IMG/VR virus record: IMGVR_UViG_3300010149_000051
Location: 1-39,117 of that record
Length of the DNA stretch: 39,117 nucleotides
Direction: 5' to 3' (one strand)
DNA from: a virus
Part shown: positions 9,076 to 38,994 of the stretch, piece by piece
How positions within the stretch are numbered: the first letter of the stretch is position 1
Layout of the letters: the number at the start of each line of letters is the position of its first letter
Program-made: the position numbers and the translations under genes
Notes under the pieces: generated by a model
What the model was told of the DNA's origin: nothing
Seen by the model: the letters and a program-made list of their open reading frames with translations, nothing else
Database searches by the model: none

Positions 9076-9558
9076 ATGTCACAATATAATTTTAAAAATT
9101 CAGGTCGTAGTATAGAAGAGTTGAATAAAAAAATACGACGGCAAGATTTTTTAGAAAAAGAGCAAAAATTGCCAATTGGTATTGTTTTACCATTAAGAAG
9201 TGGTACTAAGTCAAAAGAAACTCTTTTTTCAATGACACACGATGAAAACGAACAAGTTAAAATAAATTTAAAAAATCTTATATTGACTAAAAAAGGCGAG
9301 TATCTAGGACGTCCTAATTTTGGAACAAATCTAATTGAACTTTATAATACTAGCAATTTAGAAAATATTGATAGCATTGTAATGGATGAAATTAAAAGTG
9401 CTGTTTCTATATTCATGCCTTTTTTAGGGCTACAAAACTTTGAATCGTTTTTTGTAAACGCAACAGAAAACAACTCACCATATTATGACATTACAGTTAA
9501 ATATTTGTTTAATAATATAGAAAACAATGTAAATATAAAGCTGCAAGTTTCGAGGTAA
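9076..9558 (+). CDS. 25: gp25-like baseplate wedge protein
   Basis: A 160-aa protein of the GPW/gp25 family. The core is present: VKINLKNLILTKKGEYLGRP followed by NFGTNLIELY, matching the 'N-x-x-x-L-x-T-x-x-G-E-x-x-x-x-P-x-F-G' pattern (E75 and the PNFG turn). It then has the helix that ends the domain and a beta strand at the C-terminus. Length is close to that of T4 gp25 (about 130 aa) plus a 35-residue N-terminal extension. In contractile tails gp25 sits at the inner baseplate wedge and nucleates sheath assembly together with gp6. The Shine-Dalgarno is weak (AGG at 9066-9068). The gp6-like gene follows after three bases, the conserved gp25-gp6 order. Confidence 0.85.
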   Translation: MSQYNFKNSGRSIEELNKKIRRQDFLEKEQKLPIGIVLPLRSGTKSKETLFSMTHDENEQVKINLKNLILTKKGEYLGRPNFGTNLIELYNTSNLENIDSIVMDEIKSAVSIFMPFLGLQNFESFFVNATENNSPYYDITVKYLFNNIENNVNIKLQVSR

Positions 9559-20592: not shown

Positions 20593-21639
20593 ATGGCAGG
20601 ATTTTTAGATAAAAAAAAGAGATTAATAGATTACAAGCTTTCTGAAGCTGGAAGAGAAAAACTAAGCACTGGTAATCTAGATTTTGCTTATTATACTTTT
20701 TCTGATAGGTCTGTTGTTTATAGTCAAAACTTAACTGGAAGTAATGGCTCAATTAAATCAGATTCTTTAGAATCTTTTATGCCATTTGAAGCTGATTCTC
20801 ATTTTAAAATTAAATTAAATCCAGACTTTTCTTTAAGTAGCACATTATCTTTTGAAAATTCAAATGTTACAAAACGTTTAGAATCTAAAGATAATTTTAA
20901 AAAAACCTTATCAGAAAAAATATTAGAGTTTCAATTTTTAGATAATGTTACGGTCAATAATAAAGTTGATAGAGAAGACAATATTTTTAGTTTTAAAAAT
21001 GTTTTTGAAGAATATGATTTTAGAAATCCATTGTTTGTCCAAAAATATCCAACTATTAAACAAGCTTCTGAGTCATTAAAATCTTTGCCAAACATAGGCA
21101 ACGAGGATAAAAGATTTAAACATTTTTTAAAAAATAAAAAGTTGGTTCCGGTAAGTAGCGATGGTTTTCCATTTGAAATACTCGACGAATCTGATGATGT
21201 TGATATTAATTTGATATTTAAAAACTTAGAAATAGAATCCTTAAACCTAGAAGATATTCCAAATAGAGAACAGCTAATAGTAAATGTATTAAACAGCTTA
21301 AATAAAAGTAATAATATTCTAAAGCTTGAATATGAAATACACGAAGACTTCGCAAAAGATAGCGATCAATATCTGTTTGAATTACATAATGCTGTATATG
21401 ACAAACCTAGTTCTGACCCAAATAGAAAAATAGAAAAATTAAAAAAGTTATTTTTTGTTAACCTAGGAAATTTTATAGATAATATACGTCAGGTTGAGTA
21501 TACCGTGTATTTAATAGGCAAGATACTAAAAAAGACTACTACTTTCGCTGAAGATGGTTTAAATCAAGCGAACAATATTACAGTTGCAGAATTTGATGAT
21601 TATGCTTTTGTAAATTTATTTACTTTGGTTGTTGAATAA
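20593..21639 (+). CDS. Virion protein with GFL...GRE-type N-terminal module
   Basis: A 348-aa protein. The first 45 residues (GFLDKKKRLIDYKLSEAGREKLSTG, then FAYYTFSDRSVVYS) align with the start of the 246-aa protein at 32374: the same GFL opening, the same I-x-D/L-x-x-GRE-x-L helix, and the same F-A-x-x-x-F-x-x-D-x-x-x-x-Y-S ending. The rest differs: a charged central region and two helical stretches at the C-terminus (IEKLKKLFFVNLGNFIDNIRQV). The module resembles N-termini I recall in marine phage structural proteins and may be a docking element. AAGAGA about ten bases upstream serves as ribosome site. The stop overlaps the next ATG. Function unknown. Confidence 0.5.
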   Translation: MAGFLDKKKRLIDYKLSEAGREKLSTGNLDFAYYTFSDRSVVYSQNLTGSNGSIKSDSLESFMPFEADSHFKIKLNPDFSLSSTLSFENSNVTKRLESKDNFKKTLSEKILEFQFLDNVTVNNKVDREDNIFSFKNVFEEYDFRNPLFVQKYPTIKQASESLKSLPNIGNEDKRFKHFLKNKKLVPVSSDGFPFEILDESDDVDINLIFKNLEIESLNLEDIPNREQLIVNVLNSLNKSNNILKLEYEIHEDFAKDSDQYLFELHNAVYDKPSSDPNRKIEKLKKLFFVNLGNFIDNIRQVEYTVYLIGKILKKTTTFAEDGLNQANNITVAEFDDYAFVNLFTLVVE

Positions 21640-32373: not shown

Positions 32374-33114
32374 ATGGGATTTTTAAATCATGCAACTAAT
32401 AATATAATAGTTGATGCAGTTTTAACAGAAAAAGGCAGAGAAATCCTAGCAAGAAATGATGGGTCGTTTGCTATTCAAAGTTTTAGATTAGGTGATGATG
32501 AAGTCGATTATTCTATTTTAGAACAATACGGTATTGTAATTGGTAAAGAAAAAATTGAAAAAAATACTCCAATTTTTGAGGCAATTACAGCACAAAATTT
32601 AGCTTTAAAATACCCACTTCGAAGCTTTTTGACAAATAACACAGAAGATATTTTTGCTATTCCCTATCTCGTATTAGGAGAAAACATTACAACACCAGTT
32701 TCTTTATCTTCTAATTTATCGTCTAAAAAGGATGTAAGAAAATCAATTACTGTTAAAACATTTGTTGATCAAGATCAGGACTTTGTATTAAGCGAAGACT
32801 CGTTAAAAGATACAAGTTTCACGGTAAAGGTTTTTGATAAATTAATCAAGTTAACTGGGGCTTCTTCTAGAGCTGTTAAGAATGATATTGCATACTATAA
32901 GATAGGTGCTCAAGTTTTAGACGAAGATTTTCAAGGTCAGCAAGTTTGTAGCTTTACAGTTACTGCACAAAACGTTGTTAATGCTTCAGCCTTTAAATTC
33001 TTTTCAACAAAAAGTAATAATTCTTTAATTAAAACTCAAATTGAAATTATAGGAAATAATACCAATTCTTCTATTATAATTCCCGTTACAATACAAAACA
33101 ATATAATTACATAA
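32374..33114 (+). CDS. Virion protein with conserved N-terminal module, 246 aa
   Basis: The N-terminus reads GFLNHATNNIIVDAVLTEKGRE, then FRLGDDEVDYS. I recall this module from many marine phage structural proteins, usually annotated as hypothetical. It also opens the 348-aa protein at 20593 in a more divergent form. The remaining 190 residues are beta-rich (KSITVKTFVDQDQDFVLSED, CSFTVTAQNV), consistent with a small sandwich domain. The start is certain from AGGAG seven bases before ATG. It is the first gene after the gap at 32311 and heads a set of three virion genes, so it may be expressed at a higher level than the genes before it. Function unknown; an adaptor in the baseplate or tail is inferred. 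Confidence 0.6.
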   Translation: MGFLNHATNNIIVDAVLTEKGREILARNDGSFAIQSFRLGDDEVDYSILEQYGIVIGKEKIEKNTPIFEAITAQNLALKYPLRSFLTNNTEDIFAIPYLVLGENITTPVSLSSNLSSKKDVRKSITVKTFVDQDQDFVLSEDSLKDTSFTVKVFDKLIKLTGASSRAVKNDIAYYKIGAQVLDEDFQGQQVCSFTVTAQNVVNASAFKFFSTKSNNSLIKTQIEIIGNNTNSSIIIPVTIQNNIIT

Positions 33115-33124
33115 AGGATAAAAG

Positions 33125-34375
33125 ATGACTTTTTTTGAATTTGAAGATGAAGATAGAGTATTAAAAAGATCACAAATAAGGCAATTAGTGGATGTATTAG
33201 CAGCTGACATTTCAGGCTCTAATACTGGTTCTAGTACAAGAAAAAAATATGAAGTTTTTTTAACAGGTTCAGGTACTGACTATGTAACTAGTTCTTTATT
33301 TCATACAGTCTTTGATCAAACTCATACGCTTCAAACTGCAAATGAAATGTTAGATATAACTGTAGGATCGTACGCAAAATATAAAGCTGGGACGTCGACA
33401 ACTGACCCAGAATATTATGTTTGTTTTAAAGATCAAGGAAGTACAGCAATTACAGCAATTACTGCTTCTGTTGATTCGAGCAACAAACCTATTTTTGATA
33501 GTAGTCTATTAATGATGAGAGAGAAATTAAACATTTATAAGCAATACGCACAAGTATTGCTTGGTGACGGAAGTCAATATTTCACAACTCCTTATGATGA
33601 CGATGTTACAAATGACGAAGATGACAGAATTAATCATGCTATTTTTATTAATATTAAAAGACTCTTTACTAGAGACGGTTTAGATAAAGAAAAGTTTTCA
33701 ATGAAAATTGGAAACAAAGCTGGAAATGGAACTTCACCTCAGCCTATTGATGCTGTTTCTCAAACTTCACAGTTAAAATTGATATCAGATACAAATGCTA
33801 AGTCAAGTTTAACAATAACTCCGCAAGGTGGTAGCGTTGGAACTATTGTAAATGATACAAACAATGCTGTAGGTTTGTTATTTTATGAAAATGGTATTAT
33901 AGTTTTAGATGCAGAAAAAGTTTTAGATCCGAGTCAACAAATTACAGGTAATATATCAACAGTAATATCCCCTACAGCTGGTAGTAAAAAAGCTCTTACA
34001 GCTGGTTCTAAGTTTATTCCAGACGTTTGGGTAACTGGCTCAATTGACGATGTAATTGACCATGTAGCAAGTACAAGATTTGGAAGTGCAGATACGTCAG
34101 CAATGGGTCTAATTAATAAGACTTCAATTAATTCAACTATTTATTTTTGTAGAGTTGCTCCTGCTGAAGGTAATTTTTCAACAAATCCAACTTATACAGA
34201 TGCGAGCGGTAGTTTAAGATGCATTGAGGAAAAAGGCGATGATCCATTCTCTTATGTCACAACAATTGGATTATACGATGGCCCAGGAAACATGCTGGCA
34301 GTTGCAAAGACTTCTAGGCCTATTGAAAAAAATCCTGAAGTTGATTTATCTATTAGTGTACGTATTGATTACTAA
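33125..34375 (+). CDS. Virion protein with shared C-terminal module, 416 aa
   Basis: A Ser/Thr/Gly-rich beta protein, with less Asn/Lys bias than its neighbours. The N-terminus (DEDRVLKRSQIRQLVDVLAAD) is helical, followed by VTSSLFHTVFDQTHTLQTAN, a stretch I recall in marine phage structural proteins of unknown role. The final 44 residues (FSYVTTIGLYD...NMLAVAKTSRPIEKNP...RIDY) match the end of the next protein. AAAGGA lies a few bases upstream of ATG, a good ribosome site. Balanced composition and a strong start suggest an abundant virion component. It could be a tail or baseplate shell protein, but no fold can be proven here. Confidence 0.55.
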   Translation: MTFFEFEDEDRVLKRSQIRQLVDVLAADISGSNTGSSTRKKYEVFLTGSGTDYVTSSLFHTVFDQTHTLQTANEMLDITVGSYAKYKAGTSTTDPEYYVCFKDQGSTAITAITASVDSSNKPIFDSSLLMMREKLNIYKQYAQVLLGDGSQYFTTPYDDDVTNDEDDRINHAIFINIKRLFTRDGLDKEKFSMKIGNKAGNGTSPQPIDAVSQTSQLKLISDTNAKSSLTITPQGGSVGTIVNDTNNAVGLLFYENGIIVLDAEKVLDPSQQITGNISTVISPTAGSKKALTAGSKFIPDVWVTGSIDDVIDHVASTRFGSADTSAMGLINKTSINSTIYFCRVAPAEGNFSTNPTYTDASGSLRCIEEKGDDPFSYVTTIGLYDGPGNMLAVAKTSRPIEKNPEVDLSISVRIDY

Positions 34376-34389
34376 GAAAGATTAAAAAT

Positions 34390-37300
34390 ATGTCGTTTAA
34401 GATAATTGAAAATGACATGATTGTCAAAAACAACATTACCCTTGAACCTCATATAACATTTGTCTCTGCTTCTAATGATTGTGAAGATCTTGTAGGTCAT
34501 AATCTTACTAGTTCTGGAATATCTGGTTCAATACCTGTTACCAATATGACACACAAATATTATAAAGATGAACTAAAAGGAACTAGAGTATACGATATTG
34601 ATGACTCAAAATACAACTTTAAAGTAAAGATGGAGTCGTTAAATTCGATTGACGTATTAAACGAAGCACGCAACGGAAATGTTTTTGAACAAGAACTCAA
34701 TGCTAAAGGAATATTTTCTAATAGAAAGCAAGAACACAATTTTGGTGTTGAAAAAGTTAAACAAAGATATTTAATTGATGATGAGAATTATTATAAAAAA
34801 AAATCTATTAAAAATTTATATAAATATTATAACGAAAATTTAGAACATAGACAGTTTAATTCGCATTGGGGATTTTCTAATTACAATACAATTAATTTTT
34901 TCAATATTAACGAAAGCTTAAATGAAAATATTAAAAGTAATAAAACACATTTAAATTGTTTAGCTTATCCTAATTTACTTGATAGTTCTGGTAAGCCTGC
35001 ATATGACTTTGCAAGTGAAGATTTAACTTTTTCTTTTTATATTAATCAAAGAAGAAAAAACAAAAAAAATCACCATTTTAATCCTGGTTGTGTTTTATCT
35101 ATTCCTAAATTGATTTCTATATATATTGTAAAAGGTACAAAAACAGATATAAACGAATTAACAGAAAGTTATAGATTGTTTATAGAAATAGGTGAAAAAA
35201 CACTTATAAATACATCTAATAATATTTTGCTTTCTGATGTGTCGGGGAATACACTATTTGATTTTAACAATTCATCATTACAATCTCAAGAAAATGGACA
35301 TCTTTATTTAAGTTCAGATAATATTATTAATTTTAATTGTTGGCATAATATTTCTATTGTTTTATCAAAAAAGAATGATGACAATTATACTTTACTGTTA
35401 TATAATGATGGTGAATTAATTGATACGCATTCAATAACCAACTTTAATAAAAATGCAAATGATGAAAATAATTTTATTTTAATTGGAAATAAATTTACTA
35501 ATTTAAATGGTAATATTACAAAATATGTAAATGAATTATTCTCAGTAAATGGTGATGGCACAGATAATTTTACAGGACCATACTCTACAAAGTCTATTTC
35601 TTTTGGAAGTCATTCTGTAGACTTTATTAAAGATTACAATGATTCATTTTCGATTGAAATAAAAGATAGCTTACTAGAAACTATTGAATCGGACTATGTA
35701 GATGAAAATACGAGCTGCGCATTAAATGCAGAAATACATGATATTCGAATATACAATACTAACATGGGTTATCTAATAAAAGATAAAATTTGTAAACAAA
35801 ATATTGTAGATTATACAGAAAATAAATTAATATTTGGTTTGCCTGTTTACTACTATGACAATCCTGTTGAAAAACTAGGACTTGTTAATATTCACAGAGT
35901 AAATTCTAGTTCTCAAATTACTTTATCAAATATTCATATAGAAGGTCCGGTTAACAGCTATTTTTCAAATAAATGTTTAGGACACGAAGTTACAATTGAA
36001 AATTTCTTATATGAGTTTAAGCAAAAAATATCACCTAATATTGTATTTGGCGGAAATCTAAAAGCAGATGACTTGCATTCTTCTTTGAATTTAGTGTATG
36101 AAAATGAAGATCTTTCACAAGCTAACTCGACTTTATGCAAAAATTCAAGTAAAGGAATAAGCTTACTAGAAACTTATTATCAAAAAATAAAATCATTTGA
36201 CTCTGAAAATGGGAGTCCTAATAGTCTATCTGAAGATAATTTTGAACTTATTAGAAAACACAATTTTTATTATAGAAACAATATGATCCTACCAAATGAC
36301 AATGGTTTGCAAGATCAAGTCTATGATATTAAAGGATATTATACTAATTATTCAGGTTTTTCACATACAACTTTTGATAACAATAAAGATTATCAACACG
36401 TAAATCTTAATCAAGTTCATAGTGATAAAGTTTTAATGCCGAATAACGTAGACTTTATCACTACAGTTTCTAATGCTGAATTAGTAAATTATTCTGCTCA
36501 AAGCAATAAACTAAAAAAAGAAGAAAATCGAAGAACTTTTTTTATATCTTCTGGTAAAAGCTTTAAAGAATCTTATGATTTATTTACAAATGCTTCGTTA
36601 AATAATTTTCATAAGGATAGTTTTACTTTAAATACAAATTCAAGTATGGCTGGAGCAATAAGATCGCTAACAGGATCTTTGTCTAATGACTTTATTTTTA
36701 TAACTAAAGGATCGAATGGCTTTTTAAAAGATTTGTCAAATCCTGTTGGAAGAAAAATAAATGATGATTTTAGAAATAATGCAATAGGTAATGTATTTCC
36801 GACAGTCAGTACTAAAATTATAGATAATGATCCTACTAATCCAGATAGTGTTGCATACTTTACTTATGAATTGCCATATTTTAATATAACAAAAGATTTT
36901 AGCGAAACTTATTCTAATACTTTATGCATTTCATCTTCAGTTTACAATAAAAATATTGTTAGAGAAAGTGTTAGAATATTTGATACAGCTTTGTCCGGAA
37001 CTGGTAATGTAATTAATATTAGTCTAGCTGATAATGGTTTGGGTTTGTTGCATAGAAGTGATTGTTTAACAAAAGTTGCAGACTGGAACTATGTAGGACA
37101 TATTCTTTATAAGGAAGGTTTTGCAACTATTCTTCATCCCGGGTTAGAGAATTTTTCTCAAACAAATTATAGAATTGAATTTAAGTCTAACGCAGAAATG
37201 AATGTTTATGAATTGAATTTACCTGCAAAAGCTACAGAAGTTAATTTATCTAGAAATACATCTTATATAGAAAATTTAAGACTTGATGATTCTGCATTTA

Positions 37301-37443
37301 ACGCTGACGAGAGTTTTGTATATATTACAGATATAAATCTACATGATGAAGATTTAAATGTAATGGCAACAGCAAAACTAGCAAAGCCTTTTGCTAAAAA
37401 GAATACAGATAATGTATTGTTTAGAATTAAGATGGATTATTAA
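34390..37443 (+). CDS. Large virion protein with LamG-like domain and shared C-terminus
   Basis: A 1017-aa protein. Residues about 205-460 look like a LamG/concanavalin sandwich: LTFSFYINQRR as opening strand, NCWHNISIVLSKK with YTLLLYNDGELIDTHS as the central pair, and NAEIHDIRIYNTNMGY as the closing strand. The following 450 residues are not recognised. The last 44 residues (FVYITDINLHD...NVMATAKLAKPFAKKN...KMDY) match the end of the preceding protein. The ribosome site is weak (AAGAAAGA). Its stop overlaps the next ATG (TAATG), coupling virion and replication genes. The LamG domain makes it a candidate for glycan contact on the host surface, as in the 1150-aa protein, but this is not shown. 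Confidence 0.55.
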   Translation: MSFKIIENDMIVKNNITLEPHITFVSASNDCEDLVGHNLTSSGISGSIPVTNMTHKYYKDELKGTRVYDIDDSKYNFKVKMESLNSIDVLNEARNGNVFEQELNAKGIFSNRKQEHNFGVEKVKQRYLIDDENYYKKKSIKNLYKYYNENLEHRQFNSHWGFSNYNTINFFNINESLNENIKSNKTHLNCLAYPNLLDSSGKPAYDFASEDLTFSFYINQRRKNKKNHHFNPGCVLSIPKLISIYIVKGTKTDINELTESYRLFIEIGEKTLINTSNNILLSDVSGNTLFDFNNSSLQSQENGHLYLSSDNIINFNCWHNISIVLSKKNDDNYTLLLYNDGELIDTHSITNFNKNANDENNFILIGNKFTNLNGNITKYVNELFSVNGDGTDNFTGPYSTKSISFGSHSVDFIKDYNDSFSIEIKDSLLETIESDYVDENTSCALNAEIHDIRIYNTNMGYLIKDKICKQNIVDYTENKLIFGLPVYYYDNPVEKLGLVNIHRVNSSSQITLSNIHIEGPVNSYFSNKCLGHEVTIENFLYEFKQKISPNIVFGGNLKADDLHSSLNLVYENEDLSQANSTLCKNSSKGISLLETYYQKIKSFDSENGSPNSLSEDNFELIRKHNFYYRNNMILPNDNGLQDQVYDIKGYYTNYSGFSHTTFDNNKDYQHVNLNQVHSDKVLMPNNVDFITTVSNAELVNYSAQSNKLKKEENRRTFFISSGKSFKESYDLFTNASLNNFHKDSFTLNTNSSMAGAIRSLTGSLSNDFIFITKGSNGFLKDLSNPVGRKINDDFRNNAIGNVFPTVSTKIIDNDPTNPDSVAYFTYELPYFNITKDFSETYSNTLCISSSVYNKNIVRESVRIFDTALSGTGNVINISLADNGLGLLHRSDCLTKVADWNYVGHILYKEGFATILHPGLENFSQTNYRIEFKSNAEMNVYELNLPAKATEVNLSRNTSYIENLRLDDSAFNADESFVYITDINLHDEDLNVMATAKLAKPFAKKNTDNVLFRIKMDY

Positions 37444-38012
37444 TGACAGAAATAAAATATCTAGGATTAGATATCTCTACATCTATTATAGGAATATGTT
37501 TTTTAGATAGTAACTATAATTTAGTAGATTTACAAGCAATTAATTTAAAAAAAATAAAATGTATATTTCAGAAATCTTTAATTGTAAAAAATGAGTTTAG
37601 CAAAATAAAATATAACTACAATATATCAGAAAATCTAGAAATATCTATAGAAGAAGCCTTCCAATCTTTCAGTAAAGGATTTTCATCAGCAAAAACATTA
37701 TCACAACTAAATAGATTCAATGGAATAGTATCTTACTTAACATATGAAGCATTTGGTAAAACTCCTGAATATATTAATGTTAATAGAGCAAGAAAAAATC
37801 TTGATATTAAAATTGATAGAAAAATTGATAAAAACACAAAAGAACAAGTATTTGAATGGGTGCAAAAAGAAATTAATTTTGATTGGCCCACAAAAATATT
37901 AAAGTCTGGTCCTAATAAAGGTCTTGTAAAAAATGACGAATCTTGTTATGATATGTCTGACGCATATGTAATTTGTAGGGCATTAAAATACAATGATAAA
38001 TCAAACAATTGA
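37443..38012 (+). CDS. RuvC-like Holliday junction resolvase
   Basis: A 189-aa protein of the RNase H-like (RuvC) fold. The catalytic acids are in order: D10 in LGLDISTS on the first strand, E70/E71 in SIEEAF, and D170 and D173 in YDMSDAYV at the start of the last helix. Four acids coordinating two metal ions cut four-way junctions symmetrically. Length is close to E. coli RuvC (173 aa). It lies directly before primase and an SbcD-like gene, consistent with resolving branched replication DNA before packaging, a job done in T4 by the unrelated endonuclease VII. The start overlaps the previous stop by one base and has no Shine-Dalgarno. Another RNase H-like nuclease is the main alternative. Confidence 0.75.
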   Translation: MTEIKYLGLDISTSIIGICFLDSNYNLVDLQAINLKKIKCIFQKSLIVKNEFSKIKYNYNISENLEISIEEAFQSFSKGFSSAKTLSQLNRFNGIVSYLTYEAFGKTPEYINVNRARKNLDIKIDRKIDKNTKEQVFEWVQKEINFDWPTKILKSGPNKGLVKNDESCYDMSDAYVICRALKYNDKSNN

Positions 38013-38994
38013 AAATAGATTAGAATTTCTAGAAAACAATATAAGAAATACATTGTTGTCAAAAGATGGCATGAATTTATCTATCTGGTGTCCTTTTTGT
38101 AAACATAACAACAGAAAGAAATTAAAATTAGCAATTCATTTAGAAAAGTGCTTTTATCATTGTTGGTTATGTGATAAAAAAGGTTCTAACGTTCCTTATC
38201 TCTTGTCGAAAATAGATAAGACTTTAAGTGATAAATCTAAAAAATTATTTAAAAGTAAAAGCTCAAAATCAAATGTTTTAGATTTTGACATAGCAAAACT
38301 CTTCGGCGCTGAAAGTATCTTTGAAGAGATGCAAGAAGAGGCTATTGCTATCCCAGAAGGATTTAAGCTTTTAGCTACATCATTTAATTCTAGTAATCCA
38401 GACATTAAGAGTGTTTTTAAATACGCTTTAAATAGAGGTGTTTCTAAACATAAATTGTGGTTTTTAAGATTAGGATATTCTTTAAATAGTGAATATCAAA
38501 GGTGTTTAATTATTCCTTCTTTGGACGCAAATGGCAAAATAAACTATTTTACAGCACGTAGAATAGATGTTGATACAAGTTGTGGTTATAAATATAAAAA
38601 TGCAAATGTTCCTAAAAAGAACATGATTTTCAATGAAATAAATATAGACTGGAATATTCCGCTTACTTTAGTTGAAGGCCCCTTAGATTTATTAAAAACT
38701 AATGATAATGCTACTTGCCTATTAGGTTCAGTATTAACAGAAGATATGTTGCTATTTAAGAAAATTGTCAAAAACAAAACAGATATTAATCTTGCTTTAG
38801 ACGAAGATGCATATTACAAAGCAATCAAAATAGCAAAACTTCTATCAGCTTATGATGTAAATGTTAATATCGTAAACACAAGAGGTTATCCTGATGTTGG
38901 TGATATGACATCAAATCAATTTGAAAATCTTTTAAAAAAATCAAAAGAATTTAGACTAGAAGATAACTTGTTAAATAAAATTAAACAACTTTAA
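37993..38994 (+). CDS. DNA primase (CHC2 zinc finger and Toprim)
   Basis: A 333-aa primase. A zinc-binding domain at residues 33-60 has C33-x2-C36, C53 and C57-x2-C60 (WCPFC...CFYHCWLC). The Toprim core is at about 222-300, with E228 in LVEGPLD and D270/D272 in ALDEDA, the metal-binding acids. It would make RNA primers on the lagging strand with the replicative helicase, like T4 gp61 (342 aa, nearly the same length). The ATG lies 20 bases inside the preceding gene, without a clear ribosome site. It is not a helicase fusion (no Walker motif), so a separate helicase should be encoded elsewhere. The call is firm at domain level. Confidence 0.85.
   Translation: MINQTIENRLEFLENNIRNTLLSKDGMNLSIWCPFCKHNNRKKLKLAIHLEKCFYHCWLCDKKGSNVPYLLSKIDKTLSDKSKKLFKSKSSKSNVLDFDIAKLFGAESIFEEMQEEAIAIPEGFKLLATSFNSSNPDIKSVFKYALNRGVSKHKLWFLRLGYSLNSEYQRCLIIPSLDANGKINYFTARRIDVDTSCGYKYKNANVPKKNMIFNEINIDWNIPLTLVEGPLDLLKTNDNATCLLGSVLTEDMLLFKKIVKNKTDINLALDEDAYYKAIKIAKLLSAYDVNVNIVNTRGYPDVGDMTSNQFENLLKKSKEFRLEDNLLNKIKQL

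Follow-up and report, generated by a model that had tools for sequence, protein, structure and literature searches.

Adjacent phage proteins with matching ends appear to be ancient paralogues that share a larger C-terminal domain

The 39,117-base window analysed here is IMG/VR virus record IMGVR_UViG_3300010149_000051 (positions 1 to 39,117), which is probably a fragment, and it encodes two adjacent proteins of 416 and 1017 amino acids (aa) whose C-terminal ends are alike. A preliminary description of this DNA had read the likeness as a 44-residue docking tag reused on unrelated virion proteins. Does the match mark a small module pasted onto different bodies, or common descent of the proteins themselves, and what might such an end do? 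As judged from sequence profiles and a tree, the two proteins appear to be members of two ancient, heavily diverged paralogous lineages, referred to below as first-gene (416-aa) and last-gene (1017-aa). The idea of a small module on unrelated bodies fails; the module is the best-conserved part of a larger homologous domain in these ancient paralogues. As to function, we favour (probability roughly 0.55) paralogous baseplate or adhesin proteins that share a C-terminal assembly domain, the end of which would work as a fibre-docking element, a role for which, as for its partner, the support is indirect.

When the two ends were aligned without gaps, 14 of the 44 terminal residues were identical. 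The BLOSUM62 score of this pair was 75, whereas 20,000 shuffles averaged -40 and did not exceed 18 (z = 8.3). Every other ungapped pairing of 44-mers from the two proteins scored lower. A search for the module across the window returned only these two places. Thus, the gapless alignment reported previously was borne out, and both copies lay where they had been placed, stop codons included (Table 1). The final DY of that description holds for the window pair but not as a general ending, since several endings exist and DF (62) is more common than DY (32). Structures were predicted with AlphaFold2 (AF2), using alignments without rows from annotated phage records. The mean predicted local distance difference test score (pLDDT) was 63 for the 416-aa protein, with ~75-87 over the last 40 residues, and 47 for the last 338 residues of the 1017-aa protein, with ~77-87 over the last 38. 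The final three predicted strands (residues 376-384, 390-402, and 408-415 in the 416-aa protein; 976-985, 991-1004, and 1009-1016 in the 1017-aa protein) coincide in the sequence alignment with an offset of 601 residues. Rather than unrelated folds, the two ends therefore have predicted strand layouts that are alike and in register.

The match itself is sound, but 44 residues is too small a unit. In relatives, a second conserved block with the pattern E-x-N-x-S-x-N-P lies ~45 residues upstream of the terminal block and belongs to the same unit; in the window pair it reads VAPAEGNFSTNPTY (416-aa) and AKATEVNLSRNTSY (1017-aa), and the spacer between the two blocks is ~60 residues longer in some last-gene proteins. 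Judged by these alignments, homology clearly covers ~90 residues, not just 44. Beyond this, the first-gene and last-gene profiles aligned over 125 columns, module included (hhalign probability 99.6, E 8e-25), from VGLLFYENGIIVLDAE (416-aa) and VGHILYKEGFATILHP (1017-aa) to the C-terminus, and when short last-gene proteins were used, over 216 columns, again with the module (probability 99.8). With the module removed, 116 columns of the first-gene and short last-gene profiles still aligned (probability 95.5, E 1.4e-8). The first hhalign runs on whole bodies had returned no body homology, probably because last-gene proteins bearing LamG domains blurred the alignment, and the homology was resolved because short, LamG-free proteins were used. 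Within lineages, residues 137-416 of the 416-aa protein had blastp matches to dozens of first-gene proteins, with E as low as 1e-27 once close relatives were set aside, and residues 853-1016 of the 1017-aa protein matched last-gene proteins (E 2.6e-11). In Microcystis phage Mel-JY01, four consecutive module proteins have ~240 further residues in common outside the module, at 32-40% identity, and the two large ones among them carry long N-terminal extensions. Although blastp also linked 186 of 189 bodies, we do not rely on this as proof, because some bodies still contained pieces of the module after fixed trimming. These comparisons point to a common C-terminal domain of ~165-220 residues in both lineages, of which the last 90 residues are the best conserved. 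Since profile homology continues beyond the module, the bodies of the two proteins are not simply unrelated; the earlier statement that they differ completely is correct for a direct comparison of the two but not at the level of the families.

In a tree of 94 modules, one branch (support 93/86, 96% of bootstrap trees) separated all 39 last-gene modules from the first- and middle-gene modules, in a data set of 93 columns only, with the bootstrap unsettled and the 1017-aa pair on a long branch. A split of last-gene from earlier-gene modules on one branch indicates an old duplication and not a repeatedly pasted tag, and the simplest reading of the sequences would be one old duplication followed by tandem duplications in the Mel-JY01-like lineage. 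The premise of the preliminary description, in which recombination would spread a small mobile docking tag among unrelated bodies, would agree with the absence of comparable ungapped similarity between the two window proteins outside their C-terminal part, and with the wide variation of N-terminal extensions and inserts. However, it is contradicted for the families as a whole by the body-level profile homology, by the one-branch split and by the conserved gene order, and we consider it very improbable. Could the end, then, be conserved only as the structural core of a duplicated domain, with no common site or partner? Such plain paralogy is in keeping with homology well beyond the module and with two lineages that split once. 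Yet in both lineages conservation peaks in the last 44 residues, with mean pairwise identities of 0.59 and 0.50 compared with 0.22-0.45 elsewhere (0.59 compared with 0.29-0.45 within the first-gene lineage). Furthermore, the end is conserved across proteins of 270 to 1370 aa that vary in their N-terminal parts and inserts, which suggests that it is under an additional constraint. Plain paralogy alone is therefore unlikely.

Outside the window, tblastn with the 416-aa protein identified Mel-JY01, four records of Flavobacterium phage immuto, Rhodothermus phage RM378, and a 484-kilobase (kb) uncultured phage; direct searches with the 1017-aa protein gave a single distant locus in IMG/VR and no phage record. 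At least 592 stretches that encode the module were confirmed when IMG/VR was scanned with profile guidance, so that the profile search proposed earlier for other phage proteins ending alike yielded hundreds. GTDB contributed 10 loci, and most of the assembled genomes concerned carry the label Flavobacteriales or Flavobacteriaceae. The carriers are large phages, many apparently of Bacteroidota hosts. Of 187 proteins with intact ends, 166 have no more than 3 residues between the module and the C-terminus, and 183 no more than 10. The four exceptions (in loci L025, L029, L032, and L079) have 14-92 extra residues after the module and could be used to ask what purpose a free C-terminus serves. Module genes usually occur as two to five consecutive genes, with two at most loci and five in a row at some; among isolated phages, Mel-JY01 has five in a row, immuto two, and RM378 one. 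All 100 successive module-gene pairs are on the same strand, 88 of them within 100 bases of each other. Pfam and PHROGs scans of single proteins gave mostly noise, and the module has neither a curated match in Pfam nor a strong one among the PHROGs.

A homologue of the 246-aa protein encoded directly upstream of the window pair precedes the first module gene in 80 of 80 assessable loci, with a median gap of 14 nucleotides (<50 in all but one). Since these loci were ranked by similarity to the first-gene query, the sample leans towards the first-gene type; tblastn recovered RM378, immuto, and the 484-kb phage independently of this ranking. The window pair has the features of the family, i.e., the conserved C-terminal module, the tandem array and the 246-aa-type protein directly upstream. 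We infer that the module proteins are virion (baseplate or adhesin) proteins because of their position near gp25-like, wedge, fibre, and spike genes; in immuto, annotated fibre and spike genes follow the module genes. A literature search for a virion proteome of immuto, Mel-JY01, or RM378 found none.

Of 47 last-gene proteins, 29 contain a LamG domain (PF13385). In those LamG-bearing relatives that were inspected, the domain lies between the motifs DDGxGNL (~residue 160) and GNVFYxxG (~residue 450), which are ~15 residues apart in short, LamG-free proteins; LamG is thus an insertion into the shared domain. It is placed in a loop of that domain in L006:25799-27574 and in other last-gene proteins, and occupies residues 266-437 in Mel-JY01. 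The PF13385 match of the 1017-aa protein is weak (E 4.7e-4; 20.8 bits, below the curated 27.6) and lies further upstream than the insertion site in relatives.

What, then, would the shared end do? The collar domain attaches P2-type fibres. The final beta-hairpins of the module align with the second half of the P2 gpH tail-collar-fibre domain, PF12571 (hhalign probability 93, E 3.6e-7, 30-39 columns), with a score of 48.5 compared with a maximum of 23.9 in 60 column shuffles. This analogy, together with the way conservation is concentrated in the last 44 residues, makes docking or oligomerisation the likeliest function, so that the docking proposed previously finds indirect backing through the collar-fibre match, even though the tag on unrelated bodies does not. 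In our favoured model, the bodies and their inserts, LamG lectin-like in most last-gene proteins, would extend towards the host surface. The common C-terminal domain would oligomerise, or would dock the proteins at one site that they share on the baseplate or the periphery of the tail. Its action would match that supposed for the collar domain of P2-type fibres, although with the other chain terminus involved, and the likeliest partner would be the 246-aa protein.

Alternatively, the module could be a C-terminal trimerisation or intramolecular folding element that serves self-assembly, with no docking on a common partner. Its strict C-terminal position would suit such an element, as would the adhesin-like LamG inserts and the long predicted beta-strands, whose moderate confidence in AF2 monomer models is what intertwined oligomers would give; elements of this kind end many fibres and spikes. 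On the other hand, the matching collar-fibre segment sits at the attachment end of P2-type fibres, and a nearly universal upstream neighbour suggests a role between proteins, both of which are still compatible with oligomerisation. We regard self-assembly alone as somewhat unlikely. Several results nevertheless weigh against a docking end. Strong C-terminal conservation fits a folding core or trimerisation element equally well. The hhalign E-values are pairwise rather than database-scale, and column shuffling is a lenient control. None of the module sequences reached the curated PF12571 score (2 of 16 were listed, best E 0.08); the cut-off is 23 bits, which a genuine gpH exceeds with 135. Before its last 48 residues, the AF2 model of the 1017-aa end is of poor quality, and a Foldseek search of PDB folds with both models returned no significant match (E 0.1-1). 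Finally, profile searches of PDB sequences returned nothing usable with the module, i.e., no solved structure by sequence, and only caspase-3 noise (E 0.3-0.8) with the first-gene family; the gpH domain gave nothing usable in the same search.

Table 1. Positions in the window of the module proteins, their shared C-terminal parts and associated genes (HMM, hidden Markov model; ConA, concanavalin A).
Feature	Position	Strand	Details
C-terminal module of 416-aa protein	34103..34375	+	Residues 327-416 plus stop; most conserved 34241-34375; alignment and HMM census
C-terminal module of 1017-aa protein	37171..37443	+	Residues 928-1017 plus stop; most conserved 37309-37443; alignment and HMM census
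416-aa protein, first-gene lineage	33125..34375	+	Part homologous to other lineages from ~residue 128-172
1017-aa protein, last-gene lineage	34390..37443	+	C-terminal domain ~residues 853-1017; weak LamG/ConA-lectin match at 275-374
Shared C-terminal domain in 1017-aa protein	36946..37443	+	Residues 853-1017
246-aa protein	32374..33114	+	N-terminal 'AVLTEKGREILA..F.I..FRLGDDEVDY'; homologue directly upstream of module genes in relatives
gp25-like baseplate wedge protein	9076..9558	+	PF04965 E 2.9e-5, below curated cut-off; phrog_261 and phrog_43, baseplate wedge subunits
Homologue of annotated baseplate wedge protein of Flavobacterium phage immuto	9562..11436	+	phmmer E 3.5e-48 to L007:5236-7059

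Some further observations concern the neighbourhood. A 348-aa protein (window 20593-21639) starts with MAGFLDKKKRLIDYKLSEAGREKLSTGNLDFAYYTFSD, like the N-terminus of the 246-aa family, and has a phmmer match (E 1e-4) to RM378 protein L008:11761-12378; it is possibly a second, diverged copy of the 246-aa family, judging by this N-terminal likeness, and the profile of that family does not detect it. The single module gene of RM378 (L008:11761-14342) is flanked on both sides by proteins with the N-terminal pattern LT..G..L, p129 and p127. Directly after the module genes, two proteins are encoded at window positions 37443-38994. One is a RuvC-like resolvase (phrog_159, E 3e-5), and the other, which is primase-like (phrog_47, E 4e-30), has homologues in 56 of the fetched loci, so that the neighbourhood downstream of the module genes looks conserved too.

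The module defines a family in large phages that is widespread and unannotated, and so could help to annotate tail cassettes whose genes are otherwise listed one after another as 'hypothetical proteins'. Should the end truly dock, these phages would have a fixed attachment end behind variable, lectin-bearing bodies, and the module would mark their adhesin gene set.

Among known systems, the direct homologues are uncharacterised proteins of Mel-JY01, immuto, RM378, and uncultured Caudovirales, which have the same module and gene order as well as BFVD fold matches and are annotated as hypothetical in their records. The Laminin_G_3/concanavalin A-like lectin domain is distinct from the module, next to which it occurs as an N-terminal or inserted domain. 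A further candidate is the neck whisker gp31 of Ounavirinae (Sf14, PDB 9C39 chain K; Bas63, PDB 9MT4). The 110-aa chain 9C39_K matches the Ounavirinae gene next to the portal cluster, and from gene order and length this gene would be the one named whisker gp31 in the Sf14 paper (PMC11821841). Foldseek listed 9MT4_K and 9C39_K for both AF2 models at E ~1, with probabilities against gp31 chains of 0.54-0.66 (416-aa model) and 0.28-0.57 (1017-aa model); the best overlap was ~80 residues at a root-mean-square deviation of 3.1-3.2 (9MT4_K with both models, 9C39_K with the 416-aa model). The gp31 segment VSHFSLWDDNSKCVATGALSSP is in register with ITTIGLYDDNNELLAVAKLSKP, and hhalign places gp31 and the module in register only weakly, with a probability of <9%. 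Unlike the C-terminal module, gp31 is a free 110-aa neck protein, and its kinship is a lead rather than a demonstrated relationship.

The P2 gpH collar domain offers the fuller comparison. Its final block, I..IGLYD..G.LLAVA.L...KP.......ELLIKV..EL, aligns with the module, in which the second-half block IGLYD..LLAVA...KP is found, and phrog_1162, phrog_30680, phrog_11518, phrog_6202, and phrog_2137 are weak matches of module members and strong matches of a gpH protein. In gpH, the second-half block is preceded by an LTxxGxAKLA block, and both are at the N-terminus of the chain, whereas in the module lineages the gpH-like block is C-terminal and the LTxxGxAKLA block is not in the same chain, the match covering the second half only. 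A weaker match (hhalign probability 52) links the first half of the gpH collar domain to the N-terminus of the 246-aa family, with a score of 34.2 compared with a maximum of 18.8 in 60 column shuffles. From these two short profile matches, the first-half one weak, it is conceivable but quite unlikely that the collar domain is split over two neighbouring genes, such that the 246-aa-type protein carries the first half at its N-terminus and each tandem adhesin carries the second half at its C-terminus; the halves would then complete one fold between chains, and one upstream protein would anchor several paralogous adhesins to the baseplate.

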